Shown one piece after another: positions 10,471 to 41,379 of a stretch of 64,000 nt of DNA (position 1 is its first letter; each line of letters begins with the position of its first letter). A program made the position numbers and the translations under genes. Origin of the DNA: Thermodesulforhabdaceae bacterium (GTDB taxonomy: Bacteria > Desulfobacterota > Syntrophobacteria > Syntrophobacterales > Thermodesulforhabdaceae); NCBI GenBank assembly GCA_037482015.1, contig JBBFKT010000003.1, positions 54,645 through 118,644 of the forward strand, read 5' to 3'. Below the pieces are notes generated by a model, which had not been told where the DNA came from, did no database searches, and saw nothing but the letters and a program-made list of their open reading frames with translations.

Positions 10471-10471
10471 T

Positions 10472-11742: not shown

Positions 11743-11755
11743 AAAAACCTCCTAA

Positions 11756-12817: not shown

Positions 12818-12833
12818 GCCCCATCTCCATCCT

Positions 12834-16764: not shown

Positions 16765-16782
16765 GTCGTTCCTCGTAGACAC

Positions 16783-20949: not shown

Positions 20950-20997
20950 TGCGTCCCCTTCGGAGATTTTACCGCGATGGTTCAATTAAAATTGCAT

Positions 20998-23511: not shown

Positions 23512-23585
23512 AGGAACCTGGGTTTCCTTTCTTATTCCCCTTACGAGTTCGAGTATAGACTTTTTTATCTGCTGTTGAACATCAA

Positions 23586-24245: not shown

Positions 24246-24255
24246 CTGAGAAAAC

Positions 24256-25422
24256 TCACATGCTGTCCCTTAATCGTGCCATCTCTTCCACTATCCATTC
24301 CCTGTGCTTATTCAATCTTGCCTTCCAGTTCTCAAAATCCTCTTTTTTCTCCTCCGCTTTTTCCAGAGCATTTTTCATCGCCTGCTCAATATTTTTTAGC
24401 TGTTCGGAAGAATAATTTTCTGCAACCTCCTCCAGCTTTGGGTACAACTCATTTTCGGCGTATTCATAAAGCCTCTCTCGAAAATCATCTGCCATTTCAT
24501 TTGCCTTTTTGACCAGCTCGTTTCGGATGCGCTCCTCGCTAAGCGGATCCAGAATCTTATGAAGTCTCAATACCATCAACAAACCACCCACCACTTCTAA
24601 AACGCCCTTCAAGAGTCGGAAAACAGGAGGAATCCCCATTAGAAAAACAGGAAGTGCATTCAAAAAAATCCTTGAGTAACTTGCCCTAGAATCCCCAGTA
24701 ACTTCAATATCTTCTAGGTTGATGCCCTGGCTAACAAATATGTTTAATTCCTCTTCTACTGCCCCTTCGATTTTCATCGCTGCCTTTTCCAGAATTTCAA
24801 TAGCAACAATATTGAAAGCCGCATAGTTCCTCTCAGCGACGACCCGACCAACCGTGTTTAATGCGGCATCTACCAGAGCCTTCCGAACATCTATAACTTC
24901 GTTTCTTATTATCAAATCCACTTTCCTCTTCAATTCAGCGATTTTTCTTTTGATTTCTTCCTGAATCCTTTTCCTTTGTTGTTGAGCTTTCTCGATTTCC
25001 TGCTGGATCTCGTCCATATTCAATGAACCAGCTTCCAGGGATCTATCAATCAGGCTTAAGAGCACAGGAAGCATATTCAAAGCTTTTTTGGTTATTGATA
25101 TCGATTTCAATTCAAGCGATGCACTCAAAACTTCTTCCAGTATAAACTTTCTAAGTTTATCTATCTCTTCAGGTGTTGTGGTGTTTACCGCCACCACTCT
25201 GCTGATACTAACTTCTTGAGCTATCTTGCGAACATGTTCAACCTGTTGTCTTATCTCTTCTTCGCTGTCCAGCAAGTCCGTTTTGGTCATCAGAACTACA
25301 ATCCTCGCGGCAAAAGAAGGCCTATCAGCTATGAAAGACAGATCACTTCTGGCCAATCCCTGGCTGGCTGGAACTGTGTAAAATACAAAATCAGCATTTG
25401 CTAAAACCTCTGATGCCAGCAT
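24256..25422 (-). CDS. Dynamin-like GTPase B, C-terminal part (G4, stalk, membrane paddle); frameshifted
   Basis: This frame continues GTPase B after a frameshift. It carries the G4 motif VVLMTKTDLL, a long helical stalk with coiled coil (QQEIEKAQQQRKRIQEEI), a hydrophobic stretch VFLMGIPPVFRLLKGVLEVV that looks like a dynamin paddle or transmembrane hairpin, and a C-terminal coiled coil. The frame overlaps the N-terminal part by 32 bases at 25391-25422. The whole protein would have about 530 residues, close to bacterial dynamin-like proteins that tubulate membranes. Confidence 0.78.
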   Translation of the reverse strand: MLASEVLANADFVFYTVPASQGLARSDLSFIADRPSFAARIVVLMTKTDLLDSEEEIRQQVEHVRKIAQEVSISRVVAVNTTTPEEIDKLRKFILEEVLSASLELKSISITKKALNMLPVLLSLIDRSLEAGSLNMDEIQQEIEKAQQQRKRIQEEIKRKIAELKRKVDLIIRNEVIDVRKALVDAALNTVGRVVAERNYAAFNIVAIEILEKAAMKIEGAVEEELNIFVSQGINLEDIEVTGDSRASYSRIFLNALPVFLMGIPPVFRLLKGVLEVVGGLLMVLRLHKILDPLSEERIRNELVKKANEMADDFRERLYEYAENELYPKLEEVAENYSSEQLKNIEQAMKNALEKAEEKKEDFENWKARLNKHREWIVEEMARLRDSM

Positions 25423-25846
25423 TTCCCTTGCCGAAAAAAACAGATTTTATACCGGGCGTGTCTATGAAAACTGTTCCTGGCGGAAAAAGATTGGTGATGA
25501 TTTTTACCTCGACAATTTGCTTTTCGGCAAAATCTATATCTTTTATTTTCTCCAGGGGATGCCTTGCCCCGGAAACACTTATAAACTCTTCGCCATCTTG
25601 GGTCGTTGTCAATCTGACAATAGTCTGTGTGGTTTCATTCAGACCTGTTGGTAGCAGATCTCTTTCCAGTAGGGCGTTAATAACCGATGTTTTTCCAGAC
25701 GAAAAGGGACCCACCAGAGCTATACTCAATGGCTCAGACATTGCCATTTCAAGATCGGAAACAAGAGACTTCACATTGCTGTCATTTACAGCGATGTCTC
25801 TGCATATCTCCTCAATCCTGGCTACAAGCTGTTTTTGCTTTTCCAT
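25391..25846 (-). CDS. Dynamin-like GTPase B, N-terminal part (G1-G3); ends at a frameshift
   Basis: A 151-residue frame with P-loop LVGPFSSGKTSVINALLERD, the G2 threonines of NETTQTIV and G3 VFIDTPGIKS. Just after G3 a run of seven A at 25434-25440 (T on the coding strand) shifts the frame into GKGNAGIRGFSKC and a stop. Removing one base gives DTPGIKSVFSAREMLASEVL and joins the 24256-25422 frame. It starts two bases after the stop of the preceding gene. The gene is either interrupted or read through by slippage. Confidence 0.78.
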   Translation of the reverse strand: MEKQKQLVARIEEICRDIAVNDSNVKSLVSDLEMAMSEPLSIALVGPFSSGKTSVINALLERDLLPTGLNETTQTIVRLTTTQDGEEFISVSGARHPLEKIKDIDFAEKQIVEVKIITNLFPPGTVFIDTPGIKSVFFGKGNAGIRGFSKC

Positions 25847-25848
25847 TT

Positions 25849-26351
25849 TTAGTCCACTCCCCTTTTTACAAATTCCAGAACCTCTTCAAAGGGCTTACCT
25901 TCCTGGAGAAGACTGACAACCTTTTCTGCCACCTGGTTTTTTCCATAAGTCTTTGCCCATGTGGAAAACGCTTGAATATCGTCGGTGTTTGATGGATTGG
26001 TGGTTTTGATTTTTTGCTTTAGAGCCTGAGGGTCACTGGGCATTCGATTTTTGTTTTCCTGTATGTATTGATTGAGCTTTTTTATGGCAAAATCCCTGCT
26101 TTTCTCAACTTTTGCTGTGGCTTCTTCTTCCAAAATCCCTAAAACTGCTTGCATATCCAATCGAAAACTTTCCCTTCCCTTGTTCCTGAGCCACTTTTCA
26201 GCTTCCTCAAGGGGATCAGGAGATTGCATAATTTCTCTGACAACGGAGTCGGGACATCCTGCTCCTATAAGCTCTCCTACGATAAACCCTTCATAGGGCC
26301 ACTGTTTTTTGTAAGCTGGTTGGCGTTGTGTGGGCTGGTAAAATCCTTCAC
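25849..26351 (-). CDS. Hypothetical protein of the dynamin cluster, possibly with a damaged 5' end
   Basis: The clear frame runs from an ATG at 26229 (126 residues, helical, rich in charged residues: PLEEAEKWLRNKGRESFRLD). The same frame stays open and protein-like upstream to 26362 (YKKQWPYEGFIVGELIGAG then CPDSVVREIM), but has no ATG, GTG or TTG there. A GTG at 26351 with an AAGGAGGAGA ribosome site would reach this frame if one T were added to the run GATTTTAC near 26340-26343. Alternatively the frame was once joined to the small membrane protein upstream, which ends with an in-frame TAA. The function is unknown; the position between GTPases A and B suggests a partner role. Confidence 0.55.
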
Positions 26352-26364
26352 TCTCCTCCTTTTT

Positions 26365-26466
26365 TTAAGGTTCTGATTTCTTAAACCACATCCAAACCAA
26401 CAATCCAAAGGCACCTATAAAAAGCAAGTAAACTAAAAAACTGAGATCAACTCCTTGATTTTCCAT
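26365..26466 (-). CDS. Small single-pass membrane protein (33 residues)
   Basis: On the minus strand an ATG at 26466 opens a 33-residue frame, MENQGVDLSFLVYLLFIGAF and then GLLVWMWFKKSEP. It has a perfect ribosome site AAGGAGGG seven bases upstream. The centre is one hydrophobic helix of about 20 residues followed by two lysines, which predicts an inner-membrane protein with a cytoplasmic C-terminus. It lies between dynamin A and the 126-residue hypothetical gene, in the same frame as the latter and separated from it by a TAA. It could anchor the dynamin complex. Confidence 0.65.
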   Translation of the reverse strand: MENQGVDLSFLVYLLFIGAFGLLVWMWFKKSEP

Positions 26467-26479
26467 CGTTACACCCTCC

Positions 26480-28561
26480 TTAGTTTTTTATGATGTTCTC
26501 TATCTCACCTAACCGAGAAAGCCTTCTGCTGATTTCTTCTTTAAGTGATTCAAGAGATTTTCTCATTTTTTCTTTTTTATCTATGATGTCATCAATTTCT
26601 TTTTTCCCTTCCTCCTTTCTTTTTTCCACCAAGGTGATTTCGTTATTTAATCTGCGCAGTCTCTCTTCAATTTCCTCTCTGAAGGTTCCCATGATAGCGT
26701 TTTCTAGTCCATCTAGAGATTTCGTTATCTTATCTATAAGAATTTGCTTAACCGAACCGGCTTGTTGGGACAGCACTTCGTTCACCTCGACATAAACGTT
26801 TTGTACTAGCTCATCCTTATCAAACCATCTCCGCCAACCTAAAAATCCGGTATCTATATTCAGCTTTACATTGAATTTTGCCACCTCTTTTTCCATGAAA
26901 TAATTAATGGTTCTCTCAATGCTGGAAACAATGGACTCCCTTAGTTTAACAGTAGTTTCGGTGCTTTCGCTTTTTTTAATGAAGTGGTCCAGTACCACTT
27001 CATTGAGGTCTTCCCTCAATTTATTAAATCCCTCTTGAACAGATTTTTTTGCTTTCTCCAGTGAATTACTGATCCTGTCCCTTATTTCAAAGGAAAATCT
27101 TCTCTTCATTGCTTCTTCTGAACTTATATCTTCTGATCTGACATTTATCTTTCCACAATTGAGTGTTGCGCGTTTCTCCAATTTCAGCTTGTGTTTTAAA
27201 AGTTCTTCTTTAATACTAACACGGAACTCTCTTCCTTCCAGTTCCATCTTTCTGAGATAGTCTCTCTTCTCGTTAAGTTCCTTCTCCAAAACTTCTAATC
27301 CTTTTCTGGCATTATCAAGTTCTTCGTCAATCTCTGCTATGTGGTCCTGAGCTTCCTTATGGAGATTCTTAAAGGTGGTTTTCAGGAAATTCAAAGCAAC
27401 AAATGTTATTATTTCCGACATGTTTTTAACGATGAGCTCATCGAGCTTACTTTCCAGCAAATCAATGCCACTTTGTTTGATCCACTCTTCAGGATCATCT
27501 CCCCACTTATTGGCCTTTGCTCGCTCTATGATGCTTTTATCTTTTTCCCTTATAAGACGTCCATTTTTTACTCTCATGCCCACAAGGTAGAGAGCGGCTG
27601 AAACCTCTATAATCCTGTTGGGATCAAAAATCCTGGCCATTTCCTTAGAAAGGCTATCACCATAACCAAAGTTTTTTGACGCCTCTAAAACTCTGGATGA
27701 TGCCTTTCTAAGCATTTCTTTGAGCCTTGTTCTTTCATCGGGCCTGAGCCGGTCAAGCTGGGTAACAGCAGTGACAACAGAGCTATGAGAAGCCTTTTCA
27801 ACAAATTCTGCAAGGTAATTTATATCCTTGCTGTCCATAAAACGTATACTGGGGGCTGTGCAGTAAAGGATAGCAACTGCTCTTTTGAGGAGTTCCCTGG
27901 TGGTATTTGATCTGGCTTCTATGGGATCATCCAACCCTGGGGTGTCCACTATATCTAGAGACCGCAAAATATCATGTTCAAGATACAGGGTTGCCTGTTT
28001 GACCACATAGCTGTACTTACCTCTTGATGAAACAAAGTCTTCAATTTCGTCCCATTCAACTTCTCTGGTGGTTCCGAGCACACTGTGAATTTCACTTCCA
28101 AGAGCATGCTCGGCAAAATTCACCATCTCTTGAGCCCATTTGCTGTCTTCCGTTCTAGACCTGGATTTTTCAACTATTTGCTCCCATTCTTCTGGAGAGT
28201 AGAATTCAACTTCGGCTTTTCGCTTGTTCCCCCACTTTATAATGGTAAGACGAGCTGTCTCCGGCGAAACACTTGTCGGCAGAACCTCATCCCTGAAGAA
28301 CAAAGCATTCATCAATGTCGTCTTTCCTGATTTTATCTGGCCGGCCATTGCAACAAGGGGCTTCTTTTCTCCCCCACAGTAACTTTCCAGGTCTTTTAAT
28401 CTTTCGAGGATATCCGGATTCTCGCCTGGTAGCTTTTTCCCCCTTTCATCAAAGATTGCTTTAACTTCCGGAGGGAACTCTCCCATTACCAGCTTTTTTA
28501 CTTCAAGTGCCAGTTCCATCAATTTTCTAGTTTTCTCAAAGGCTAAGCCATCACTGATCAT
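26480..28561 (-). CDS. Dynamin-like GTPase A with long coiled-coil stalk
   Basis: The ATG at 28561 is preferred over the GTG at 28585 because GGGAGG lies six bases upstream; this gives 693 residues. The P-loop is MAGQIKSGKTTLMNALFF, G2 falls in VSPETARLT, G3 is LDIVDTPGLDD and G4 is TAVTQLDRL. After the GTPase domain come long helices with strong coiled coil near residues 415-450 and at the C-terminus (EKRKEEGKKEIDDIIDKKEK). There is no clear transmembrane segment. It is the only intact GTPase of the three, is transcribed first after the DUF1232 gene and probably forms hetero-assemblies with B and C. Confidence 0.85.
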   Translation of the reverse strand: MISDGLAFEKTRKLMELALEVKKLVMGEFPPEVKAIFDERGKKLPGENPDILERLKDLESYCGGEKKPLVAMAGQIKSGKTTLMNALFFRDEVLPTSVSPETARLTIIKWGNKRKAEVEFYSPEEWEQIVEKSRSRTEDSKWAQEMVNFAEHALGSEIHSVLGTTREVEWDEIEDFVSSRGKYSYVVKQATLYLEHDILRSLDIVDTPGLDDPIEARSNTTRELLKRAVAILYCTAPSIRFMDSKDINYLAEFVEKASHSSVVTAVTQLDRLRPDERTRLKEMLRKASSRVLEASKNFGYGDSLSKEMARIFDPNRIIEVSAALYLVGMRVKNGRLIREKDKSIIERAKANKWGDDPEEWIKQSGIDLLESKLDELIVKNMSEIITFVALNFLKTTFKNLHKEAQDHIAEIDEELDNARKGLEVLEKELNEKRDYLRKMELEGREFRVSIKEELLKHKLKLEKRATLNCGKINVRSEDISSEEAMKRRFSFEIRDRISNSLEKAKKSVQEGFNKLREDLNEVVLDHFIKKSESTETTVKLRESIVSSIERTINYFMEKEVAKFNVKLNIDTGFLGWRRWFDKDELVQNVYVEVNEVLSQQAGSVKQILIDKITKSLDGLENAIMGTFREEIEERLRRLNNEITLVEKRKEEGKKEIDDIIDKKEKMRKSLESLKEEISRRLSRLGEIENIIKN

Positions 28562-28703
28562 AGATTTCCTCCCGGATAAATTCACTCGTATATGCTCTTT
28601 CCGTTTCCCAAAAATGTTCTAACGTAAAAGCAGCTCACCCAAAGGAATCTCCCTGCATTCCCATTGCTTTTCATCAGTTAAATAACGTCTAAATGGTAAG
28701 ATT

Positions 28704-29120
28704 TTATGCAAATAACTCGTCATATATCTCTTTAAATTCTCTGTCCTGTGTTGCCTTCCATTTGCAGTATTTTCTGAGATCTTCCCCTACCAGGTTCCAG
28801 GCGATAAACAACACACTGACGTCATCGGCAAACCCAGCAAGTGGAATAAAATCGGGGATTAAATCTACTGGGTTAATGACATAGAGCAAAACAAAGGCTA
28901 TAGAAGCTATTGTAAACCACGGAACATCTTTGTATCTATCATCCACAAAATCTTTCAACATATTCCACAAAAGCTTTAATTTCTTAATCTGCTTAGCCAG
29001 AAGACTTGATTTTTGTATTACATTGAAAAGTTCGCTTCCGCTGCTTGCGGCTCTGAAAACATCTTCCTGCGATATTTTTCCAACACCTTCTTCGAAATGC
29101 TTTTTGTAATCTTCTGCCAT
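28704..29120 (-). CDS. DUF1232 (YkvA family) membrane protein
   Basis: This 138-residue protein carries the DUF1232 signature in VPWFTIASIAFVLLYVINP followed by VDLIPDFIPLAGFADDVSVL, which forms a membrane hairpin. The N-terminal 70 residues are amphipathic helices. A GGAGG ribosome site lies seven bases before the ATG. It is the first gene of the minus-strand dynamin cluster, about 140 bases upstream of GTPase A. The family's biochemical function is not established; a link to membrane integrity is plausible from context. Confidence 0.82.
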   Translation of the reverse strand: MAEDYKKHFEEGVGKISQEDVFRAASSGSELFNVIQKSSLLAKQIKKLKLLWNMLKDFVDDRYKDVPWFTIASIAFVLLYVINPVDLIPDFIPLAGFADDVSVLFIAWNLVGEDLRKYCKWKATQDREFKEIYDELFA

Positions 29121-29487
29121 GGGACACCTCCAGCTTTTAGTGGTTATACCTGATAACCCTTACACTCAGGTTCTTTCCACAAGTTTTCAAAACATCCTTT
29201 CCCATACACGATCTCTCAGCCTCCTATCTGTATTACGGAACCAGAAACGATTTTTTCAAATCCTCAGGCATAAATTTTTTTCGAAAAGAGATTTTTTTGA
29301 TGACCCCTTAAGGAAAGGAACCGCGGAGCAAACCCGCGAGCCACTGTCTCGAGAGGGACGGCGTCCACACCGTCTCTTGTTTGACCTACCCGCTGATTCA
29401 ATTTCTCGCACAGCCCGGTGCGGACCATCACGCCGAGTTTAGTGAAAAGTGATCAGTTAGCCAGTCTGACCGTCCCTGCAGAAAATC
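29121..29487. other. Non-coding gap upstream of the coiled-coil nuclease gene
   Basis: No gene is supported. The stretch must hold the start of the minus-strand dynamin transcript. It contains GC-rich palindromic scraps (for example ACGGCGTCCACACCGTC near 29360-29378), but no clear repeat unit. Confidence 0.4.
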
Positions 29488-30617: not shown

Positions 30618-30647
30618 TTGACAGGACATAAATACTTCCAGTATAGT
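30618..30647 (+). promoter_or_regulatory. Sigma-70-type promoter of the sigma/anti-sigma/protease cluster
   Basis: A -35 box TTGACA at 30618-30623 and a -10 box TATAGT at 30642-30647 are separated by 18 bases. The pair lies 55 bases before the 30703 start, immediately after MITE-like element B. The match is close to consensus, so basal expression by the housekeeping sigma factor is likely. Confidence 0.7.
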
Positions 30648-30702: not shown

Positions 30703-31134
30703 ATGTCTTACAGCGATCAAATCTGGGGGAAACCCGAACCCCCCATAGAAATCCTGGGTGAATCTATAAAACATTTAGGAGTTGCTCACTGGACACATCG
30801 AATGATGTTTGCCGGCTTCCAGGATTGGCTTCTCAGAAAATATACCCGAACCTTCCCCGTCACCATAAAAAATAAAAAATCATGGCATCCTATATTCGTG
30901 CTCAAAGCTTACCCTTCCTATGCCCACAAAGTCTGCCCATGCACGTCGAAATATAAGCCGAAAACACCCTACATCCGTGCAGGATGTGTCCTGGAACACA
31001 CGGGAAAAACCCTCACCAGGACGTCCTTCATTCTTGAAAAGCTCTCTTTTAATATACCCGAAGACGCAAAAGTTATCGATGAACTCAAATATACAGGGCG
31101 AGTGCCGGAAGAGTGCATTAAGAAAAACTCTTAA
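30703..31134 (+). CDS. Hypothetical protein, possible MazF/PemK-like fold
   Basis: The ATG at 30703 follows GAGAGGG and is preferred over the 30658 ATG; the product has 143 residues. It shows a weak MazF/PemK-like pattern: HPIFVLKAYPSYAHKVCPCT, then SK, a strand with R-x-G, then TSFILEKL and a closing GRVPEECI. Three cysteines lie in the middle. It is the first gene after the promoter and lies 23 bases before the sigma-factor start, so it is probably the upstream member of that operon. I do not recognise a family with certainty. Confidence 0.5.
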   Translation: MSYSDQIWGKPEPPIEILGESIKHLGVAHWTHRMMFAGFQDWLLRKYTRTFPVTIKNKKSWHPIFVLKAYPSYAHKVCPCTSKYKPKTPYIRAGCVLEHTGKTLTRTSFILEKLSFNIPEDAKVIDELKYTGRVPEECIKKNS

Positions 31135-31157
31135 CCACCAGAATGTCGAGGATCCAA

Positions 31158-32174
31158 ATGGATTGGGAAGACTGGTTAAATTCCGAAGAATCCCAAAAAA
31201 TACTAAGAAAATGCGCTCACAAAATAATGCGAAAAATACAAACATCCAGCCTGGTTTATCTTTTCTCAAATGAACTTGATTCCACCGACGAAATCGTTTC
31301 TGAACTCTGGCTCTATTTAAAATCACATGCAAAACTCTGGGACTCAAAAAAACTCCTTTTATTGCTCGAAAACGGTGAACGATGCCTCATCTTATGGATT
31401 GTCAATAAGTTTATCTTACACCTTCAAGACAAGATGAGATCACATGAGTTATCTCCTGAAGCGTATTTTTACCTGAGACTGAGGCGCGTCCTTTCTTCTC
31501 ACGATGGAATATCAACAGCAGGATTCAGGGGTAAAACTTTTTACTGTTGCAATAATTCCCTGCCTTATAGCCCTGAAAATACTTACATTCCGGAACAAAG
31601 TGATTTTTCCAGCTTTGGTTTCCCTGAAGACATATCTCAGGAAAACATCTTCGACAAAGAATCCATCATTACTGTTGCTAAACATTTCTGGTATGAGGTT
31701 GCAAAAAAAGTATCCCGACCCGTGTGGATACCTCTGAGGAACCTTAAAGATTACATAAAGACTTTCATAGTTATCCCGACAAATATCGCTCTTGAAGAAG
31801 TTTCAAATTCATTAAAAGAAACTCTGAAAAACGATGACTGGCACACAAACTATATCCTGACAGAAAAAGAGTTAACAATCGGATTAACGGGTGTTAACAT
31901 TAGAAGCCTTGCAGAAACATGCGCTATACACCTGGATGAAAAGGAAAGAGAAGTTCTTGTAAGGCTAAACATAGAAAAACAAACACTTGAAACGGTGGCA
32001 AAAGCCATGGGTTATTCGAGAGCGTCAGCCGTTGCTTACATAAGAAACAAAGCATTCAGAAAGATTAAGGAGTTTTGTATTGCCGAATCTCTCCTGTCCC
32101 CACCAGATCTGGATCAGGAAATTTTGGACGAATTCATAGAAAATCTTTTTGACGTTTGTAAAAAGTCCTTTTGA
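31158..32174 (+). CDS. Sigma-70 family (ECF-like) RNA polymerase sigma factor
   Basis: The ATG at 31158 has GAGG six bases upstream and is preferred over 31143; the product has 338 residues. A sigma region-2-like helix set lies at residues about 10-110 (LDSTDEIVSELWLYLKSHAK). A long linker follows. Region 4 is clear near residues 265-310: LDEKEREVLVRLNIEKQTLE followed by TVAKAMGYSRASAVAYIRNK, a helix-turn-helix for -35 recognition. The next gene encodes a zinc-finger anti-sigma-like protein and the third a Lon-like protease. This arrangement suggests regulated proteolytic release of the sigma factor. Confidence 0.72.
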   Translation: MDWEDWLNSEESQKILRKCAHKIMRKIQTSSLVYLFSNELDSTDEIVSELWLYLKSHAKLWDSKKLLLLLENGERCLILWIVNKFILHLQDKMRSHELSPEAYFYLRLRRVLSSHDGISTAGFRGKTFYCCNNSLPYSPENTYIPEQSDFSSFGFPEDISQENIFDKESIITVAKHFWYEVAKKVSRPVWIPLRNLKDYIKTFIVIPTNIALEEVSNSLKETLKNDDWHTNYILTEKELTIGLTGVNIRSLAETCAIHLDEKEREVLVRLNIEKQTLETVAKAMGYSRASAVAYIRNKAFRKIKEFCIAESLLSPPDLDQEILDEFIENLFDVCKKSF

Positions 32175-32256
32175 TGACCGTATAGAAAAGTGAAGGCAAC
32201 TTTAGCACCCGAGAAGTCTGGTAAAAAAAACGATAAAATAAAGTTTGGAGCTGAGA

Positions 32257-33312
32257 ATGGTTCTTCTTGAGAACGCCCTTGAATTGAAATTGTCTCTGAG
32301 ATTCATGCGGCAGTTGAGATTCTGCCCGCCTCCAGGAAAAGTCTCTCAGGAACACTTAAAAAGATGTCCTTATTGCCAGGAGTTCTACGACGGCGAAGTT
32401 GATTTGCTTTCTGAAGACCAGACTGTATCGTCCCCAGTATCCCATATTGTAGTCCCATCACCCGGCCAAATATGGAAAACCGCCGAAGAACTTTCTGGCT
32501 ATGATGAAGATTACCGTTACCATAACCCGGCATTAGTCCTGATTACCGAAATCATTGACGAAAAAATCGTCAGAGTAGCCCTTGTTCATCTGGAAGAATG
32601 TCTGGCTTTTGAAGGAGACGTGGAAGTGGCTCCCAGCGTTTTTGCCGAAATGTGGAATACCTTCCCTCTTCCGGTAAAATATCTGGGAAAATACATAACT
32701 TCTGTTACTTTGCCTCCCGTAATCCATTTTGCCGATCTAGCAGAACCGCCAACCCTGGTTCATTACTACTTTCGTAAAATGGAAGCGGAAGTTGCTTTCT
32801 ATTTCGTGGTAAAAACCTGGTACGAAATTATCGAAGAATATGACCAGGACGTGGCAGACTTAATAACATCTCAGGAAGATTATTTCACGGTTGAGGGCGC
32901 AGAACTTCCAGAAAATATACCCGACATTCTGGACAGATTAGCTTTAGCATCGCCCTGGGATTCATCCATGGCTATGGCTGCGGCAGACCGCAGCGAAGAA
33001 CTAATATCCGTCAACGTGGCTGTAGTCTCAGACGCAAAAATTTCTCTCAGAACGGCGCTAGGCTACATAAATTTTCGACACGATGACGAAAAGGGGCTGA
33101 TAATAGGAGGACGAGTCATAGGCAAATTTTCTTCCGATGCGGCTATTCATGCTTTGTGGAAGCATCGAGACACGGGAGAGATTCTTGCCAGAGCAGAACT
33201 GGCGTCTTTTGATCCTGAGGATGGCTTCTTCAGGCTGGTTTTTCCTCCCCTTACCTACGATGATAGAAAAAACGGAACCATCGCCCTGCTGGTATGCACT
33301 CGCAAAACTTAA
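32257..33312 (+). CDS. Zinc-finger (zf-HC2-like) anti-sigma candidate with large C-terminal domain
   Basis: The ATG at 32257 has GGAG upstream and replaces the TTG at 32245; the product has 351 residues. The N-terminus has an anti-sigma zinc motif: a first cysteine in RFCPPPG, then EHLKRCPYC, the H-x3-C-x2-C pattern of zf-HC2 anti-sigma factors. A segment beginning PSPGQIWKTAEEL looks like a PemK-type SH3 barrel. The rest is unassigned and ends in a beta-rich region (GRVIGKFSSDAAIH). There is no membrane helix, so it should be cytosolic. It overlaps the protease gene by 19 bases, which suggests coupled translation and a direct link; it is the obvious candidate substrate. Confidence 0.65.
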   Translation: MVLLENALELKLSLRFMRQLRFCPPPGKVSQEHLKRCPYCQEFYDGEVDLLSEDQTVSSPVSHIVVPSPGQIWKTAEELSGYDEDYRYHNPALVLITEIIDEKIVRVALVHLEECLAFEGDVEVAPSVFAEMWNTFPLPVKYLGKYITSVTLPPVIHFADLAEPPTLVHYYFRKMEAEVAFYFVVKTWYEIIEEYDQDVADLITSQEDYFTVEGAELPENIPDILDRLALASPWDSSMAMAAADRSEELISVNVAVVSDAKISLRTALGYINFRHDDEKGLIIGGRVIGKFSSDAAIHALWKHRDTGEILARAELASFDPEDGFFRLVFPPLTYDDRKNGTIALLVCTRKT

Positions 33313-35450
33313 CAAGCTGGTCTCTTCGTGAACTTTTAATCTGGAATAAATGGCATGCCCTTGAAGAAAGACTCAGGACATCCTGTATAACTCCTTACAA
33401 CTGGCGCTGGGAAGAAGACGCTGAACGATTTGAAGATGTTGTATATAAATGCAGGAAATCACTAAATCCCGGGTCATGGCAATTTCTTCAAGAAATAATC
33501 GCAGCCGCATTGCTTACAAAAGTTGCTGTCCTGGACAGCTCCATCACAAATGAGCTTATTGTTTCTGCTCTCCATGATCAATCCGTTACAGAAGACAAAA
33601 TTGAAGACGCTAAATGGAGTGTTGTGTCGTGGGTAATGATATTTCCCCATGAGCCAGGAAAACTAAAAGGCCGAATAGGCAAAGCTCTGGTTGGTGTTTC
33701 CGATGATGTCCCGCTTACGGATCTTCCACCATGGTTTTACTCGGTTTGCGACAGTAAAGCCGCAAGGTCTGTTCAAAACGCCATAAAACTTGTTCGCAAA
33801 AATATTTCCCACCATATATTATTTCGCCCTTTGCTGATGGATCATGACAGCACTCAGATATGTGGGGCTTCTCTGGGGCTTGCTGTCTGCGCTGGAGCCA
33901 TCTGTGCAAGAGATCAAATAAAAGCCGATCAAAGGTTTGCCTTTTCGGGAGGCGTTACCGAATCTGGCGAATTTACCGAACCGGGTTACATCAGAGACAA
34001 GGCTCTAACAGCAAAAGTCAATGGATTTAAAGCTCTCATCTGTGGATCCGGCGCTGGTGCGAAAAGGTCTTACTTCAAGGATGGAGTGGAAATCATCCCT
34101 GTTTCGAGACCCGAAGACATTGAATGGGTTCTGCTCTTCTCCACTCCCTACATGCCAGGCGATGGAAATAAAGCTATCAACATGGCTAAAATCATGTCTG
34201 AACCAGACATTCTTGCTATGAAGGTAGAAAAAATAGATCTTACTGTTGTGCGATCGCCTTTGTTTTCCTCCGGGTATCTGAAAACTGTCGAAAGAATTAT
34301 GGAATCCCCGAAAAATGCTGAACTTTTTGCCAGAAACCTGGCGGACTTTTGCAGCAGTCGTGGTTATGATCCTGATATCTGGGAATATCTCATTAAGCCT
34401 CTGGACGCTCTATTAGCAAAAAACCTAGACCATATAACCCCTGTGGCCGTCTGGCACATAGCTGTGACTGGCTGGACCTGTGCCGATGCGGAAGGGTCAC
34501 ATAAGGATGCGGGAAAGTGGCAATCTCTGGCGAGACACGCTTTGAATATAATCTCTCGGAGACAGGAGGGACTCGAATGCATTGCTGACTATCAAAACAG
34601 GCTATTTGTTCACTGTCGCCATCTATCTTTTCATTTTGAAGAAAAATTACCGGAAAGCTTTTCTGAAGTATTAAGCAAGCTAGAGGGCTTATATCGAATA
34701 GCAAACTACGAAGTCTATCCAGTTCTTGGCAGAATGTATGGAACGGTTGCCCAGAACCATGGATTTTGCGGACCTTCATATTTAAACAAATTACAGGAAT
34801 ATGTTCACAGAGCTCAAAAAGCCTTTGGAGAAGGCAGGGTTGAAGACTTCAGGGAAGACTGGCGCAGGGAGTTCAACTACCTTGTTTATGGATATCTTGA
34901 TGCGGAACTGTTAAAGGATGCCGAAGAGACTTTAAAAATTTACCTTGAAACATCCAGTCTTAAGGACCTGGATTTTTCTAATATGGGGCGTTATGAAACT
35001 GCCGCTTTGATTCGCTTTGCTGCCGATACGGGAGCAGATTCGATATTGCACATGGAGGCTGTGACGAGGTTTTTGAACGAGCAGAAGGCGGTTCATCCTT
35101 ACCAACTCATCCTTTTTAATTCAGGAAGGCTTTTGAAAGAAAGAGACCTCAAAAGAGCGGTCTGGAAGAAATCTCTGGACGTGGCCTGTAAACTGAAGGG
35201 AGCTCGGCGAGTCCTCGGGCTATTACCTCTTTCAGCCATGTATGTGGAGGAACTGGCATCGGAAGAAGAAATCCTCAAAGGATTTCAGCATATATTTAAC
35301 GAAGCTAGATCCATAAAAGGATTTAATCTGAATCACTTTGGCGGAATTTTAAGTGATAGTGCCATATTTTCAGATTTTTCTTCCCTGGGAGAGGCCCTGA
35401 CAAACCTCTGGAACAATCGACACCGTATTTTTCCATTCACTTACAGATAA
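33294..35450 (+). CDS. Lon-like (S16) serine protease with helical C-terminal region
   Basis: A 718-residue protein without an ATPase domain. Residues about 180-290 match the Lon proteolytic domain: QICGASLGLAVCAGAICARD carries the nucleophile serine (Lon has GPSAG here), and FSGGVTESGEFTEPGYIRDK followed by ALTAKVNGFKALI carries the lysine of the Ser-Lys dyad. The C-terminal 420 residues are helical and repeat-like, and I see no SAVED or CARF motif. It is the last gene of the sigma/anti-sigma set, 14 bases before the CRISPR array's degenerate repeat. By analogy with CalpL-CalpT-CalpS it could cleave the anti-sigma protein on a signal. Confidence 0.7.
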   Translation: MHSQNLTSWSLRELLIWNKWHALEERLRTSCITPYNWRWEEDAERFEDVVYKCRKSLNPGSWQFLQEIIAAALLTKVAVLDSSITNELIVSALHDQSVTEDKIEDAKWSVVSWVMIFPHEPGKLKGRIGKALVGVSDDVPLTDLPPWFYSVCDSKAARSVQNAIKLVRKNISHHILFRPLLMDHDSTQICGASLGLAVCAGAICARDQIKADQRFAFSGGVTESGEFTEPGYIRDKALTAKVNGFKALICGSGAGAKRSYFKDGVEIIPVSRPEDIEWVLLFSTPYMPGDGNKAINMAKIMSEPDILAMKVEKIDLTVVRSPLFSSGYLKTVERIMESPKNAELFARNLADFCSSRGYDPDIWEYLIKPLDALLAKNLDHITPVAVWHIAVTGWTCADAEGSHKDAGKWQSLARHALNIISRRQEGLECIADYQNRLFVHCRHLSFHFEEKLPESFSEVLSKLEGLYRIANYEVYPVLGRMYGTVAQNHGFCGPSYLNKLQEYVHRAQKAFGEGRVEDFREDWRREFNYLVYGYLDAELLKDAEETLKIYLETSSLKDLDFSNMGRYETAALIRFAADTGADSILHMEAVTRFLNEQKAVHPYQLILFNSGRLLKERDLKRAVWKKSLDVACKLKGARRVLGLLPLSAMYVEELASEEEILKGFQHIFNEARSIKGFNLNHFGGILSDSAIFSDFSSLGEALTNLWNNRHRIFPFTYR

Positions 35451-35501: not shown

Positions 35502-35656
35502 GGGAATTAGGGATTGGGGATTGGGATTCAGGATAAACCTTACAACATCAACCAGTGGAAACATTAACAACAACTCCAGCAACAAAAAATATCTGTCACT
35601 CCAGGAATCAAACAAACTAAATCCCCAATTCCCATTCCCCAATCCCCATTCCCTAA
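35502..35656. repeat. Inverted-repeat element inserted at the distal end of the CRISPR array
   Basis: Left arm at about 35502-35530 (GGGAATTAGGGATTGGGGAT type) and right arm at about 35620-35656 (AATCCCCAATTCCCATTCCC type) are imperfect inverted copies with a loop of about 90 bases. The loop is AT-rich and non-coding. It occupies what should be a normal spacer, so it probably inserted there after the array formed. Confidence 0.6.
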
Positions 35657-35661
35657 GACAA

Positions 35662-36609
35662 CTCGCAATCCCCTCGAAGCGGGGCGAGTTTTCCGACAGT
35701 GCTACTATTGGCAATGGCGGGAAGACTTGAACGATTAGTCGCAATCCCCTCGAAGCGGGGCGAGCTTTCCGACGGAGAATAAGGTGGGAAAGGGACACAA
35801 GGGGTTTGAAGTGTGTCGCAATCCCCTCGAAGCGGGGCGAGTTTTCCGACGCTGCCGTGGCGACGTACGACCCTCGTCTCGGGGGGGTGGTGTCGCAATC
35901 CCCTCGAAGCGGGGCGAGTTTTCCGACTCGTCTTCGAAACTCTCAATTCTCATGGCTATTTTTGTGAGTTGCAATCCCCTCGAAGCGGGGCGAGTTTTCC
36001 GACTCGTCTTCGAAACTCTCAATTCTCATGGCTATTTTTGTGAGTTGCAATCCCCTCGAAGCGGGGCGAGTTTTCCGACCCTAAATTCTAGAAGGAGGAA
36101 AAGGTATGATATCGTTGCAGTCGCAATCCCCTCGAAGCGGGGCGAGTTTTCCGACATTGGATGTGAAAAAATACGTGTATTCTGAAGAAAAAACGTCGCA
36201 ATCCCCTCGAAGCGGGGCGAGTTTTCCGACCGTTCTTGCCATTCTAAATAACGGCGTTTCAAGCCTAGGTCGCAATCCCCTCGAAGCGGGGCGAGTTTTC
36301 CGACTTACTTCGCTCACCGATTTGCTGGTTTGGTGGCAAAGGTAGTCGCAATCCCCTCGAAGCGGGGCGAGTTTTCCGACACCTTCCTGAAATTCGTAAA
36401 GAAAGATAAACGGAATGAAGTCGCAATCCCCTCGAAGCGGGGCGAGTTTTCCGACCCAAGTTGGTTAAGAAGACCGAGGACGGTTTCTTCTTAGAAGTCG
36501 CAATCCCCTCGAAGCGGGGCGAGTTTTCCGACCTAATAAACATCGTGCCGCCCTCGTTCTCACTGACTGTGACGTCGCAATCCCCTCGAAGCGGGGCGAG
36601 TTTTCCGAC
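35662..36609 (-). CRISPR. CRISPR array, 13 repeats of 36 bp and 12 spacers of 38-41 bp
   Basis: Repeats start at 35662, 35738, 35815, 35892, 35968, 36044, 36120, 36195, 36269, 36345, 36420, 36497 and 36574. The plus-strand repeat begins GTCGCAATCCCCTCGAAGCG and ends GGGCGAGTTTTCCGAC. Read on the minus strand it ends GGGGATTGCGAC, giving the 8-base crRNA 5' tag ATTGCGAC expected after Cas6 cutting, with a CCCC/GGGG hairpin. The leader and cas genes lie to the right, so transcription is on the minus strand. Variants: C at base 1 in the first repeat, T-to-C near the end of the second, T at base 3 in the repeats at 35968 and 36044. The spacers at 35928-35967 and 36004-36043 are identical. Confidence 0.97.
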
Positions 36610-36875: not shown

Positions 36876-37154
36876 CTATGCCATCCCGAACTCCTCCGTC
36901 TTTGGCTTCCTTCCATAACCGCTAATTAAAACCTTATTCAAACAAGAACCGCACTGGGCATAATACCTTATGCTGTCTGTCTTAAAATCTATAAGAGCTT
37001 CCAGCCTCCTGACCAAACGCATTAACTTCTCCTCAGTTAAATGAGGACACTCAAAAACCGACTTCTGCACTCTATAACCGTATCCCTTCAGCACCTTGAC
37101 CACTCGATATCTTATCCTGTCATCGCTTATGTCAAACGTTACAACATAAAACAT
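36876..37154 (-). CDS. cas2: CRISPR adaptation protein Cas2
   Basis: A 92-residue Cas2 with the family start YVVTFDISDDRIRYRVVKVL, which carries the conserved first-strand aspartate, and the VQKSVFECPHL segment. The C-terminus has a CGSC pair (YYAQCGSCLNKV), a possible metal site. It forms the Cas1-Cas2 integrase core. It lies 98 bases downstream of cas1 and next to the leader. Confidence 0.93.
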   Translation of the reverse strand: MFYVVTFDISDDRIRYRVVKVLKGYGYRVQKSVFECPHLTEEKLMRLVRRLEALIDFKTDSIRYYAQCGSCLNKVLISGYGRKPKTEEFGMA

Positions 37155-37252
37155 AAAACGCCTCCGTCACTATTTAAGAAACATCATTCCACATTACACC
37201 GCCCAGAGTTTCTAAAAAAGTTGAGTTATTCAGTTTTCAAAGAACACCCAAA

Positions 37253-38308
37253 TTAATAAATGCTGTCCCAGGGAAAAGGATCAAATCTATCCGATTTGTC
37301 CATGATAAAATTCAAAAAACGGCGAGCCTGATCGTAAATTAACCCTCTATACGTAACCTCCTTCCCGGAAAAGGGATCTCTTATTGTTCTGGAAAGCCAT
37401 TTCTCATAGGCTCTTATAAAAGCTCTCATAACTCTTGGCTTCATTTCAACAGGTCTTAAAGGCTTCTTTTCTCCATCGTTAGACGATCCACTTTCTGGCT
37501 CACTCAGATGATAAATAAAATCATCAGGATTTACTATCTTCCGGTTTATCAGTGTCAGAACTAAACGATCGCCTAAAAAATTTCGCCACTCCTCTACAAG
37601 ATCACAGGCTAAAGACGGTCTTCCATACTCAACGGCGTGAAGGGCTCCAAGATAAGGATCAAGTCCCACTCGCTGAACCGCCGTGAGAACTTCATTGGTT
37701 AATAGAGTATAAACGAAGGAAAGCAATGCATTTACAGGATCCAGAGGAGGTCTCCTGTTTCTGGATTCAAAGAAAAAACCTGGAGCTTTTATCAGATGTG
37801 AAAAACGCGAAAAATACAAGTTGGAGGCTCTACCCTCTATGCCTATAATGACTTCAAGAGTAGATTCTTGAGAAGCAATCTTAGCAAGACTCTTCAACTG
37901 AAGTCCCAAAGCACCAAGTTCTTTGTCAGAATATTCCTTGCTTCGCTGAGCAACAAAATAAGCACAGGACTGTATTTTGGAACTCACAACAGTGGCAGCT
38001 ATGAGCGCTTTGACAGAGGGATCGCTTAGTTTCAGGTATTGCTTCATCCGCCGTTCTACATGTTTATGCTCGTCCACGACTAAACGCGCTCTAAAACGCC
38101 CCTCAGGAGTAAGAAGCACCGTCTCTATCCTGCGCCTTATAAGCTCGTCAAGCACTGCCCCACTAAGAGACGATCTTCCCACAATGGTAAGAGTTTCCAG
38201 ATCTTCAAGAGAAATCTCCTCTACAACTCGATCACCCAGATAAACCTTCAAAAGATTGCCTTCCTTCCTCAAATAACAGCCCTGCTCGATAACATAAAAC
38301 CGTTTCAT
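37253..38308 (-). CDS. cas1: CRISPR integrase Cas1
   Basis: The 351-residue integrase inserts new spacers at the leader end. The metal ligands are visible: the glutamate in IIGIEGRASNLYF, the histidine in GALHAVEYGRPS and the acidic residues in LACDLVEEWR. The N-terminal beta domain begins FYVIEQGCYLRKEGNLLKVY. There is no fused reverse transcriptase or Cas4. Its start overlaps the primase-polymerase stop by four bases (ATGA), so the two are translationally coupled. Confidence 0.96.
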   Translation of the reverse strand: MKRFYVIEQGCYLRKEGNLLKVYLGDRVVEEISLEDLETLTIVGRSSLSGAVLDELIRRRIETVLLTPEGRFRARLVVDEHKHVERRMKQYLKLSDPSVKALIAATVVSSKIQSCAYFVAQRSKEYSDKELGALGLQLKSLAKIASQESTLEVIIGIEGRASNLYFSRFSHLIKAPGFFFESRNRRPPLDPVNALLSFVYTLLTNEVLTAVQRVGLDPYLGALHAVEYGRPSLACDLVEEWRNFLGDRLVLTLINRKIVNPDDFIYHLSEPESGSSNDGEKKPLRPVEMKPRVMRAFIRAYEKWLSRTIRDPFSGKEVTYRGLIYDQARRFLNFIMDKSDRFDPFPWDSIY

Positions 38309-39876
38309 TCTTTAACCTCGTCAGATCTTAGCAAAAATTTCTCCACAGCCAGAATAGCCATCCTAAGAAGATTCAGAGCATCCTGAAGGTTCGTGATCCT
38401 TTCTGAAACAGGCGATGTCATAAACTCCCTTTGCTCACGCACTTCAGGAATGTGAAGCAAAGGAGAAGGATAGGCATAACTACCTTCAAAAACACAGTAA
38501 TCACCCGTTATGTTCAACAACCTATGAATGGACTTACATCCAAGAGGAGTCGATCGAACTCGAGACAGCTTGTAATCAACTAAATGATGGTTGTAATCGG
38601 GAAGGTTTCTAAGAAGGTAATGCACCAACAGCCTGCCCCTGGGGAGAAACGAAACGGTTCCAAAAACAACCTTTTCCTCCCTTATTGAGACAAACCGTCC
38701 CTGGCGACACTGATCTATAATCTGTCCAAGAACCATACAGCGACTGCTTAAAAGAGCGAGCTCTGGAAAAGTCTTTGCCCATTCTTCGTCCCTGGGATGA
38801 ACTATCAATTTTTTTGAATCGGTTTCACATCTAGAATAACTTTCTAATACTTTTGCAGGAATACGAGGAACTTTTTCAAGCCATGCAAGTTGAGTCTCCA
38901 GAGATCGATCGGGAGCATGAACAAAAAATGAGGGTTTTCCTGTAACTTGATGAATGCCAAGAGGAAGCTTCACAAGATTTCCAAAGCCCTTGCCAGTTAT
39001 TTTGTCCTGTTTGGGAAAAACCTCCAGTTTGAAAAATTTAAGATCCTTTTCTACATGCTGAGCCACGGGTATTAGAACCTTTCTTACAAGAGCGGCAGAA
39101 ACGGGGGTTTCAAAGGAAAGCCAGAAATGGTATCCTTTGCTGCCGCTAAATTCCACAAAACAGCTCAACCCCTGTTGATTCAAAACCTCAGGAATTCTTC
39201 TCAACAGGTAAGAATTCTCCTGCTTAAAATGGTAGCGATCGTCCCGACTGATGCCCTCCTTGAATAAGCTTATGTCGCAGTCTGCATCTATAACGGCGAC
39301 GCTTACAGTGTTGTCTCTATGCAACAAATAGATACCGTAGGTTTGTTTGCCTTCAAGATGATCCTGCACATCTTTTTCAGTTAAGGGTCTTCTAACAGGG
39401 TAGTAGCCGTGAGTCCTGTTTTGCCGATCTGCCCATTGACGAGCAAAAGCATCCTCTTTGCCTTTGAAGATGCTCATGTAAATTTCCAGATACTTCTCCA
39501 TCCTGCGAAAACTGGTAAAGGGAGTGGCTAGATCTTCCACAGCAGAGCCATCATTAAAGTTTTCAGAACGGCTGGATCTACGGAGAAGAAATTCCAGAAG
39601 TTTTGTCTTGGCTTCCCAGAGACCAATATTGTCAGGATCTTTGGTCAAGGCAGACTCGAGAACTTTAAGTCCCAGATCGTGTTTTCCCGCAGCCTGAGCA
39701 ATTTCTGACCATTGAAGAGCCTTATCGGAAGGAAGCTGACTCCAAACAGTCTCGTCTTCCAGGAGCGTTTCTAACTGTGGATCTTTTTCGTCTTTAAGCA
39801 AAAGATTTTTCAGCTTCCTTAGCAAAAGCTCCCAGTCAATATTTGAAGCGGCTTTGCCTTTATTTCCTTCCTTCAT
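38305..39876 (-). CDS. CRISPR-associated primase-polymerase (CAPP, AEP superfamily) with N-terminal TPR-like region
   Basis: A 523-residue protein of the archaeo-eukaryotic primase superfamily. Residues about 1-100 are TPR-like (GLKVLESALTKDPDNIGLWE). The primase core shows the D-x-D metal motif in VAVIDADCDISLF, the S-x-H-like motif in FSGSKGYHFWLSF, and KLPLGIHQVTGK, the third AEP element. The C-terminal region has cysteines in TPLGCKSIHRLLN and TGDYCVFEG, like the PriCT-type zinc helix. Proteins of this type linked to Cas1/Cas2 have been described as CRISPR-associated prim-pols that act in adaptation, perhaps by making or filling prespacers. Coupling to cas1 supports the same role. Confidence 0.88.
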   Translation of the reverse strand: MKEGNKGKAASNIDWELLLRKLKNLLLKDEKDPQLETLLEDETVWSQLPSDKALQWSEIAQAAGKHDLGLKVLESALTKDPDNIGLWEAKTKLLEFLLRRSSRSENFNDGSAVEDLATPFTSFRRMEKYLEIYMSIFKGKEDAFARQWADRQNRTHGYYPVRRPLTEKDVQDHLEGKQTYGIYLLHRDNTVSVAVIDADCDISLFKEGISRDDRYHFKQENSYLLRRIPEVLNQQGLSCFVEFSGSKGYHFWLSFETPVSAALVRKVLIPVAQHVEKDLKFFKLEVFPKQDKITGKGFGNLVKLPLGIHQVTGKPSFFVHAPDRSLETQLAWLEKVPRIPAKVLESYSRCETDSKKLIVHPRDEEWAKTFPELALLSSRCMVLGQIIDQCRQGRFVSIREEKVVFGTVSFLPRGRLLVHYLLRNLPDYNHHLVDYKLSRVRSTPLGCKSIHRLLNITGDYCVFEGSYAYPSPLLHIPEVREQREFMTSPVSERITNLQDALNLLRMAILAVEKFLLRSDEVKE

Positions 39877-39888
39877 AGAAATTACCTC

Positions 39889-41247
39889 TCAGGTTCTGGA
39901 AATTTTCGCCAGTTCTTTTCTGAGCCTGTTAAGATGGGGATAGTAGGGGTTAAAGCTGTAAAGATCCTGAAGGGTTTTTTCTGCTTCAGACTTTCGCCCC
40001 ATTTTGATCAGTATAGCTGTTTGCCAGAACAGAGCTTCATGGTAGGGATTTCCATAGGTTTTCTGAAAGAACATGTTGGCTTTTTCAACAGATTCTAAAG
40101 CCTTTGAGAGGTTACCCACACGTATTTCAAGTTTAGCAAGCCTTATTAAAGCCTTGTGAGCGCCTTTTCTGTCTATTTCTGAGGCTTTCAGTAGAGTCTG
40201 TTTTGCTTTGTCAAGTTGCTTAAGGGCGACAGCTATTTCTGCTTCCGTCCACAGAATATAGGGACGTCTTCGAGATTGGGGAATCTTCGCCAGAACTTCC
40301 TGAGCCTTAACGGGAAGAGATTGAGCCAGGTAGCTTCTTGCCAGAAGTTCAAAAACGTAATCATTGCTTTCGGGATGGGCTTCTACAAGGGCTCTCTCCA
40401 GAGCTTTAGAAGCTTCTTCGTAATTTTTCATGGCGTAGTGGGCTTTTCCCAGAGAGTAATACTTATGCACACTGGACATGTATCCGGTGCTACTGTCTTC
40501 TTCGATGCATTTCTGAATCCAGTTAAAAGCCTGATCCGGTTTTTCCATATCAAGATGGCAAACGGCTAGCTGATAGAGAGATTTTACGTAATTTTTTCGT
40601 TCTTGATGGCGTGCCTTTCTTTTTTCTTCATCGTATTGTTCCCAGTTTTCCACGGCTCTCTGGAAAAGCGGAATAGCTTTTTCCAGTTTCCCGCCAAAGT
40701 TTTTATAAAGCATACCGTGACGATAGAAGCAGGTTACGCCGTCAGGCCTGAGATGCTGTGATTTTGTGAAATAAAGATGTGTAAGTTCTCGAAATTTCTT
40801 CCTTTCTTTTGGGGTCAAAACGATCTCCCTGTTTTTATCAGCCAGAAGAGCGCTATAAGCAACAAAGGCAAGCTGAGAATGAGCCATGAAGTTGTTTTCA
40901 TCTGCTGAGACTCTTGCAAGTCCTACATCTAAAGCTTCCGCGAATCGCTTAAGCTGGCAGAGGGCAAAGAGAACTTCTCCCTGAATGTGATAAACAAGAT
41001 TTGCTTCTGCAAGATGAGGCCATTTTTCTTCGACAGGGTGGCAGAGAATCAAGATCTGTTCCCAGCGGTTTTCTGACCGAAGAATTTCAATTTCGTTTAG
41101 AAGTTTCCTGTATTCCCGCTGAAGGTGAGATATGGAAAGATCTTCTTCTACGAATCTTTCCAGAAAGTCTTCTTCCTTTTCCAGATCTTCCTGTTCTTGA
41201 TAAGCCTGAGCCAAGTACACAACATTGTTGGTTTTTTCCTGCACCAT
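39889..41247 (-). CDS. TPR-repeat protein of the CRISPR adaptation operon
   Basis: The ATG at 41247 has GGAGG eight bases upstream and is preferred over 41262; the product has about 452 residues. It is built of tetratricopeptide repeats from about residue 45 to the end (YSLGKAHYAMKNYEEASKAL, YQLAVCHLDMEKPDQAFNWI). No catalytic motif, signal peptide or membrane helix is visible. It lies 12 bases upstream of the primase-polymerase, which itself has a TPR-like N-terminus. It is probably a scaffold for that enzyme or for the Cas1-Cas2 complex; I know no assigned function. Confidence 0.75.
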   Translation of the reverse strand: MVQEKTNNVVYLAQAYQEQEDLEKEEDFLERFVEEDLSISHLQREYRKLLNEIEILRSENRWEQILILCHPVEEKWPHLAEANLVYHIQGEVLFALCQLKRFAEALDVGLARVSADENNFMAHSQLAFVAYSALLADKNREIVLTPKERKKFRELTHLYFTKSQHLRPDGVTCFYRHGMLYKNFGGKLEKAIPLFQRAVENWEQYDEEKRKARHQERKNYVKSLYQLAVCHLDMEKPDQAFNWIQKCIEEDSSTGYMSSVHKYYSLGKAHYAMKNYEEASKALERALVEAHPESNDYVFELLARSYLAQSLPVKAQEVLAKIPQSRRRPYILWTEAEIAVALKQLDKAKQTLLKASEIDRKGAHKALIRLAKLEIRVGNLSKALESVEKANMFFQKTYGNPYHEALFWQTAILIKMGRKSEAEKTLQDLYSFNPYYPHLNRLRKELAKISRT

Positions 41248-41379
41248 GGGTTTATCCTCCATTTTTAGCCTCTGGTTAATTTTCTATTTTCCGTCTAATT
41301 ATTTTTTCGGTAACAATTTGGCTTTTTTCAAAAATGGGCAGGAATTTTTTTAACTTAGAGGACAAAAATTTGAGGGTTT

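Follow-up and report, generated by a model that had tools for sequence, protein, structure and literature searches.

A 64,000-nucleotide stretch of the genome of a Thermodesulforhabdaceae bacterium (assembly GCA_037482015.1, contig JBBFKT010000003.1, positions 54,645 to 118,644 of the forward strand; hereafter the window) was analyzed with respect to an operon of four genes, here named MAZ, SIG, ANTI and LON. All four are encoded on the plus strand, between a type III CRISPR island and a CRISPR array (Table 1). A previous reading of the letters alone (the sequence-only reading) had described a small ORF followed by coupled genes for a sigma factor, an anti-sigma protein and a 718-residue Lon-like protein, placed between Cmr/CARF genes and the array. 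These genes were all recovered, as was their placement, with Cmr, Csx1 and CARF-PDDEXK genes upstream and the array beginning 200 bp after the end of LON. The ANTI and LON frames share an overlap of 19 nt, and a Shine-Dalgarno sequence (TTGGAG) precedes the ATG of ANTI. A sigma70-type promoter (TTGACA-18-TATAGT) lies ahead of MAZ, suggesting that the housekeeping sigma factor probably provides basal expression of the operon; in two relatives a TTGACA was similarly placed ahead of the operon. Scans for CRISPR arrays, tRNAs and Rfam families detected nothing further inside the operon.

The largest gene product, LON, was assigned to the S16 protease family. Single-sequence searches gave weak matches (Lon_C, E=0.061; solved Lon of M. 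jannaschii, E=1.5e-4), and a profile built from 24 homologues matched solved Lon domains (E=5e-14) and CalpL (E=1.9e-4), over the S16 part only. The AlphaFold2 model of LON (predicted local distance difference test, pLDDT, 89.8; predicted template modelling score 0.79) retrieved CalpL as the top Foldseek match in the PDB (E=1.6e-4), with a root-mean-square deviation of 12.9 that indicates superposition of one part only, followed by Lon proteolytic domains (template modelling score by target of about 0.6). No ATPase domain was found in LON, so that the Ser-Lys site without ATPase proposed earlier was upheld. An ATPase-free, single-domain S16 protein can be non-proteolytic, as is the case for RadA, which the LON profile also matches, and LON might on these grounds be a degenerate, inactive scaffold, the sigma and anti-sigma factors forming a one-to-one pair released in some other way. 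Yet Ser193 and Lys236 were invariant in 24/24 members of the family, at identities down to 18%, while the rest of the domain varied, which makes an inactive scaffold very improbable.

Beyond about residue 286 the LON model was entirely helical. No Pfam match to SAVED was obtained in any of the 24 members, whereas the same search recognized SAVED in a CalpL relative (E=1.2e-18), and TPR models matched some members of the family (best E=1.6e-4 among the 24). The domain profiles of the 718-residue protein thus agree with the earlier proposal of a helical C-terminus in place of SAVED. This solenoid was the most conserved part of LON (36/288 columns conserved at 90% or more, against 7/181 in the S16 domain), above all in its second half, and the motif FPF(T/S)YR, invariant or nearly so, closes the proteins of the family. 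Such conservation favours a fixed ligand or partner and would be surprising if LON detected variable phage proteins. When LON was compared with viral models by Foldseek, only solenoids were matched, none with E below 0.001.

The ECF-like (extracytoplasmic function) sigma factor that the sequence-only reading had placed at 31158 was supported by Pfam Sigma70_r4 (E=3e-5), by the sigma70-ECF model (E=2.2e-4), and by the match of the SIG profile to solved FliA (3e-5). Region 2 was detected only within the sigma70-ECF match, which covers the full length in homologues and, in the one from locus L009, spanned both ends with E=8.4e-9.

Within ANTI, a cytosolic protein, the N-terminal pattern C-x9-H-x3-C-x2-C is of the zf-HC2 type, with C27, H37 and C41 unchanged across 17 homologues and C44 almost as constant (numbering from TTG 32245); ANTI itself did not reach the Pfam cut-off for zf-HC2. 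Its model (pLDDT 85.5) comprised a helical N-terminal part, a disordered linker (residues 51-65), a barrel (73-155) and a C-terminal sandwich. Compared with the PemK/MazF profile, the barrel scored 24.1, and none of 60 column shuffles did as well (maximum 13.7; P=0.0017). Foldseek returned for ANTI only immunoglobulin-like matches with E above 0.008, and the barrel therefore received no fold assignment from that search. The first gene of the operon, MAZ, had been read as a small MazF-like protein. The small gene is indeed present, with C78, C80, C95 and C138 invariant, but its kinship to MazF/PemK was rejected, since 3/60 shuffled controls scored equally on the PemK profile and no Pfam match was obtained in 14 members; it is ANTI that carries the MazF-like barrel. 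Neither a PADLOC match for MAZ nor similarity between MAZ and the ANTI barrel was found. MAZ is a usual, not a universal, member of the operon, being absent ahead of SIG in locus L020 and ahead of the sigma gene in L031.

The latter locus (L031:7590-11716, from a metagenome-assembled genome of Candidatus Desulfofervidaceae) encodes sigma and anti-sigma proteins of other types next to LON. The gene preceding LON passed the Pfam zf-HC2 cut-off (26.3 vs. 22.2 bits) and matched RsrA and zf-HC2 anti-sigma models, its zinc-binding anti-sigma (ZAS) motif lying at residue 224 of 439 aa, and the gene before it encodes a sigma70-ECF protein. Its match to the ANTI profile was weak (E=0.024) and involved the zinc and C-terminal parts. 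The L031 protease looks as if it had kept the same trade and changed its partners, and the zf-HC2 match of the protein in the ANTI slot, together with the invariant zinc ligands, bears out the zf-HC2 motif read earlier in ANTI.

LON was present in 14/40 relatives, ANTI and SIG stood beside it in at least 13 and MAZ in most. When 84,980 species were scanned for one peptide motif, a search that relatives lacking the motif would escape, 19 LON loci were obtained, all in Desulfobacterota and 12 of them beyond those previously found. The order SIG-ANTI-LON was kept both in relatives and in distant Desulfobacterota. Cas10 was encoded within 31 kb of LON on 8/10 contigs longer than 20 kb (P about 3e-11; genomes G000, that of the window, G004, G005, G008, G009, G013, G031 and G033), and the LON genes without a linked Cas10 were mostly on short contigs. 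The neighbours were Csm genes in some genomes and Cmr genes in others, and Csx20, a cyclic tetra-adenylate (cA4) ring nuclease (PMC12409355), often adjoins LON loci. In Desulfobulbus elongatus, SIG-ANTI-LON-Csx20-Cas6-Csx1-Cmr1-Cas10-Cmr3 follow one another on a single strand. The GGDD motif was found in 5/5 linked Cas10 proteins checked and in the available part of that from G031; the Cas10 of the window carries both GGDD and HD. The sequence-only reading had named as contrary outcomes the lack of an S16 fold or Ser-Lys pair, of sigma region 2/4, or of joint conservation; none occurred, as S16 with its Ser-Lys pair and sigma region 4 are present and the three genes are conserved together and linked to type III systems. 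No relatives of LON were found in viral contigs, phages or plasmids, and mobility of the module was discarded on that basis. An intact Cas10 of genome G017 lies about 20 kb from a LON remnant (G017:C1:3189313-3189579), a 248-aa frame that retains N- and C-terminal pieces of the protease.

Candidate targets of SIG were searched, post hoc, as dyads in the regions upstream of cas operons and MAZ in LON-bearing genomes. TGAAA-N15-CCGTA was found in five regions, while no dyad exceeded three in 20 shuffles; within the window's own family the result (4 vs. 3 in shuffles) was not clearly above the control, so that the signal depends on the pooling of genera. The motif resembles ECF-type promoters such as that of Bacillus subtilis SigW (TGAAAC/CGTA). 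Genomes were then scanned with the pattern TTTGAAAA-N13/14-CCGTA, with the reversed pattern as control. The genome of the window and G004 held four exact copies each, 8/8 of them ahead of CRISPR or island operons (III-A, III-B, I-B, or the dynamin/patatin cluster) and 6/8 outside the discovery regions. Besides the two copies in the window (Table 1), the first genome has one 92 nt before a cas8b-cas7-cas5-cas3-cas4-cas1 operon and, on a different contig, one 114 nt before the cas6 gene of a Csm locus; in G004 the copies stand ahead of csx1-cmr, of cas10/csm1 and, at 76 and 148 nt, of two type I operons with cas8b as their first gene. PADLOC models confirmed Cas8b, Cas3, Cas6, Csx20 and Cas10 at motif loci. 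Exact copies near cas or MAZ genes were also detected in G013, G019 and G005 (two each), a single copy in G003 was left unexplained, and at the distant locus L039 the motif precedes ANTI and Csx20. In G005 and G019 (loci L105 and L120), a motif divergent from MAZ precedes a conserved small protein (CGWVDDETHRAAxxYLERxGLGMPSAA).

In the 26 LON-less genomes, one copy lies 1.4 kb from Cas10 in G017, the genome with the LON remnant; in addition to it there were 11 exact matches against 12 with the reversed pattern, mostly intragenic and none near Cas10. LON or Cas10 lay at most 6 kb from 11/15 exact matches in LON-bearing genomes and from 0/11 in LON-less ones (P=2e-4). Relaxed matches within 10 kb, hand-tallied and hence approximate, were about 15/57 in LON-bearing against about 1/47 in LON-less genomes with Cas10, among the matches listed (P=6e-4). 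These promoters might nevertheless belong to another ECF sigma factor, with SIG controlling something else, given that we infer the recognition of the motif by SIG and that the operon in the window has a sigma70 promoter in place of the motif. This alternative appears rather unlikely, since at type III loci the motif, exact or relaxed, tracks the genomes with LON and SIG, and since it precedes ANTI and Csx20 in L039.

Taken together, the operon probably encodes a sigma switch that is released by a protease and tied to type III CRISPR, with SIG boosting CRISPR operons. At rest, the N-terminal zinc domain of ANTI would hold SIG. Once invader RNA has activated Cas10, LON would be turned on by way of the TPR-like solenoid at its C-terminus, the likeliest stimulus being a conserved ligand, for instance a cyclic nucleotide that Cas10 produces. 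The first candidate is cA4, because Csx20 and Csx1 are encoded nearby and GGDD is retained in the Cas10 proteins. Active LON would then cut ANTI, perhaps in the disordered linker between zinc domain and barrel, and the freed SIG would guide RNA polymerase to the ECF-type promoters of cmr, csm, cas6, cas10, csx1, csx20, adaptation and type I-B operons and of the dynamin/patatin cluster. Of this scheme, the domain identities, their conservation, the type III linkage and the placement of the promoters come from the computed results; the binding of SIG by ANTI, the cleavage, the recognition of the motif and the trigger are inferences. If SIG acts on these promoters, a single type III alarm would boost the CRISPR systems of the cell; a precedent for positive feedback on cas genes is CASP-sigma, which acts on cas1 (PMC10028731). 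The chances are about even that the solenoid represents a type III sensor of a new class, distinct from both CARF and SAVED, and that freed SIG raises type I and type III operons in trans, the whole CRISPR arsenal thus responding to one type III alarm. The trigger, which the sequence-only reading suggested may be new, is not necessarily so, because the sensor half is new yet its ligand may be cA4.

Several observations weigh against this reading. No cyclic-nucleotide-binding domain was recognized in LON. The presence of Cas10 differed weakly between LON-bearing (10/14) and LON-less (9/26) genomes (P=0.046). The motif originated from a post hoc dyad search and is missing before the MAZ operon of the window, and in distant LON-bearing genomes, where exact matches numbered 12 against three controls, only two of the 12 were clearly at CRISPR genes (Cmr1-like in L139, Csx20 in L145), so that the motif may drift along with the sigma factor. 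Finally, homology of ANTI to CalpT, of SIG to CalpS and of MAZ to the small gene of CalpLTS loci was not demonstrable with the 7-8 sequences available for each.

As to what sets LON off, the main rival to a diffusible messenger is direct contact, the solenoid docking on Csm or Cmr and the binding of target RNA activating the protease allosterically. Csx29 (TPR-CHAT) docks on Cas7-11 in this manner, and the III-E CASP system of another sulfate reducer has the same arrangement of TPR-like solenoid, protease, anti-sigma and sigma (PMC10028731); the TPR matches in the LON family and its strongly conserved solenoid are likewise compatible. We consider direct contact unlikely, given that the LON family accompanies Csm or Cmr depending on the genome, a better fit to a diffusible messenger, and that Csx1 and Csx20 in LON loci indicate the presence of a cyclic-oligoadenylate signal. 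A trigger foreign to CRISPR, the module being a neighbouring defence or stress system whose solenoid senses a phage or stress protein, would agree with the lack of CARF or SAVED domains in LON, with the frequent binding of peptides by TPR proteins, and with the adjacent dynamin and patatin genes. It seems decidedly unlikely in view of the type III linkage across distant lineages, of the motif ahead of cas operons and of the Csx20/Cas6 operon that intervenes in D. elongatus; moreover, diversification would be expected in a sensor of phage proteins, and no other part of LON is as conserved as the solenoid half.

The protease-released switch favoured here has its closest counterpart in CalpLTS, with which it shares an S16 protease without ATPase, a sigma factor and a type III context. 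CalpL relatives were found in Thermodesulfobacteriia, confirmed by matches to the CalpL structure entry (8e-31) and to SAVED (1e-18), and in 7/8 of their loci a gene of 120-150 aa, the sigma gene, CalpT and CalpL follow in the order of the window, beside cas10. This small gene is conserved before the sigma gene (L089:5310-5753, L090:5700-6152, L099, L100 and L102-L104), and no description of it was met in the literature searched. CalpT has been published as a MazF homologue, a likeness to the MazF-like barrel of the cytosolic ANTI; in a profile comparison (7-8 sequences each), ANTI and CalpT aligned in the same register with a score not above shuffles. The S16 domains of LON and CalpL are homologous (hhalign probability 93, E=3.6e-7). 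Unlike CalpLTS, however, LON has a TPR-like solenoid where CalpL has SAVED, and ANTI carries a zinc anti-sigma domain. The failed SAVED search sets the module outside CalpLTS, and the shared order stems either from common descent, the sensor having been swapped, or from convergence; an independent recruitment of Lon is possible, as the S16 profile of LON scores archaeal and bacterial Lon (LonB, LonA) above CalpL.

The CASP/Craspase system (III-E: Cas7-11, Csx29, Csx30, CASP-sigma) also combines a TPR-bearing protease, a cleaved sigma inhibitor and an ECF sigma factor acting on defence genes including cas1 (PMC10028731). In contrast, LON is an S16 serine protease and Csx29 a caspase-like CHAT protein, the place of Cas7-11 (gRAMP) is taken here by Cas10 and individual Cmr or Csm genes, and SIG putatively acts on type I and III operons across the genome; ANTI and LON had no sequence match to solved Csx30 or Csx29. 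With ZAS anti-sigmas (RsrA, zf-HC2), ANTI shares the N-terminal zinc motif and a cytosolic location, and the L031 partner matches the RsrA and zf-HC2 models, but ANTI adds a barrel and an Ig-like domain, and its predicted release is by proteolysis rather than redox. The module was therefore filed as a protease-released sigma effector, a distinct variant beside CalpLTS and CASP. No description of a TPR-Lon was found in the literature searched, where CalpLTS and CASP were; subscription papers and preprints were outside its scope, and an earlier description is possible.

Table 1. Features of the sigma operon and its surroundings in the window (nucleotide positions; residues where indicated).
Feature	Position	Strand	Remarks
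Cmr (type III-B) genes cmr6, cmr5, cmr4, cmr3, cas10, cmr1	9538..16782	-	
Candidate SIG promoter TTTGAAAA-N14-CCGTA	16809..16833	-	26 nt before cmr1 (Cmr operon)
Csx1-type CARF-HEPN effector (TIGR02710)	16967..18160	+	
CARF-PDDEXK effector	18789..19937	+	
DUF1232, dynamin-like GTPases, beta-helix protein, patatin-like phospholipase	20005..29120	-	putative SIG-controlled cluster
Candidate SIG promoter TTTGAAAA-N14-CCGTA	29234..29258	-	113 nt before DUF1232/dynamin/patatin cluster
Sigma70-type promoter TTGACA-18-TATAGT	30618..30647	+	MAZ-SIG-ANTI-LON operon
MAZ	30703..31134	+	143 aa, conserved, usual first gene of the operon
SIG	31158..32174	+	alternative in-frame ATG 31143; sigma-70 family, region 4 and conserved C-terminal extension
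ANTI	32257..33312	+	ATG 32257 (mechanical TTG start 32245); cytosolic zinc anti-sigma; N-terminal zinc motif, linker 51-65, SH3/MazF-like barrel 73-155, Ig-like C-terminal sandwich 252-353 (residues)
LON	33294..35450	+	718 aa; S16 protease domain about 105-285 (Ser193, Lys236), TPR-like alpha-solenoid 286-718, C-terminal FPF(T/S)YR (residues)
CRISPR array	35654..36609		about 13 repeats of 36 nt, directly after LON
Cas2, Cas1, PrimPol, TPR gene	36876..41262	-	adaptation operon

Further features were observed around the operon. The minus-strand cluster at 20005-29120 is flanked by the CARF genes on one side and the sigma operon on the other, with a candidate SIG promoter before its first gene; the frames of some of its several dynamin-like GTPases are broken or split, and its beta-helix protein has internal repeats. 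In the CRISPR array, two adjacent repeat-spacer units (35892-36043) are 99% identical over 76 nt, representing a duplicated spacer. A PrimPol-like protein (38305-39876) is encoded with Cas1 and Cas2, as it is in relatives. Related coiled-coil proteins are encoded at 29537-30202 and 48091-49059, the latter with nine 42-nt tandem repeats, so that the length of its coil is probably variable. Short scattered repeats with CCCCGTTGACGGGGAGG cores occur in intergenic regions (18496-18577, 30459-30485 and 53342-53630).

Sulfate-reducing bacteria thus carry a conserved set of genes beside type III loci that probably turns CRISPR operons on upon the detection of a virus. If so, type III CRISPR would have a third sigma circuit released by a protease, joining the Lon fold of CalpL with a TPR part as in Craspase, with a sensor without a known ligand. 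Its sigma factor is predicted to act at a defined promoter that stands ahead of type III, type I and adaptation operons, and the module has a cultured host, Desulfobulbus elongatus DSM 2908. In these organisms, RNA-sensing immunity would turn up DNA-targeting immunity and the uptake of spacers.

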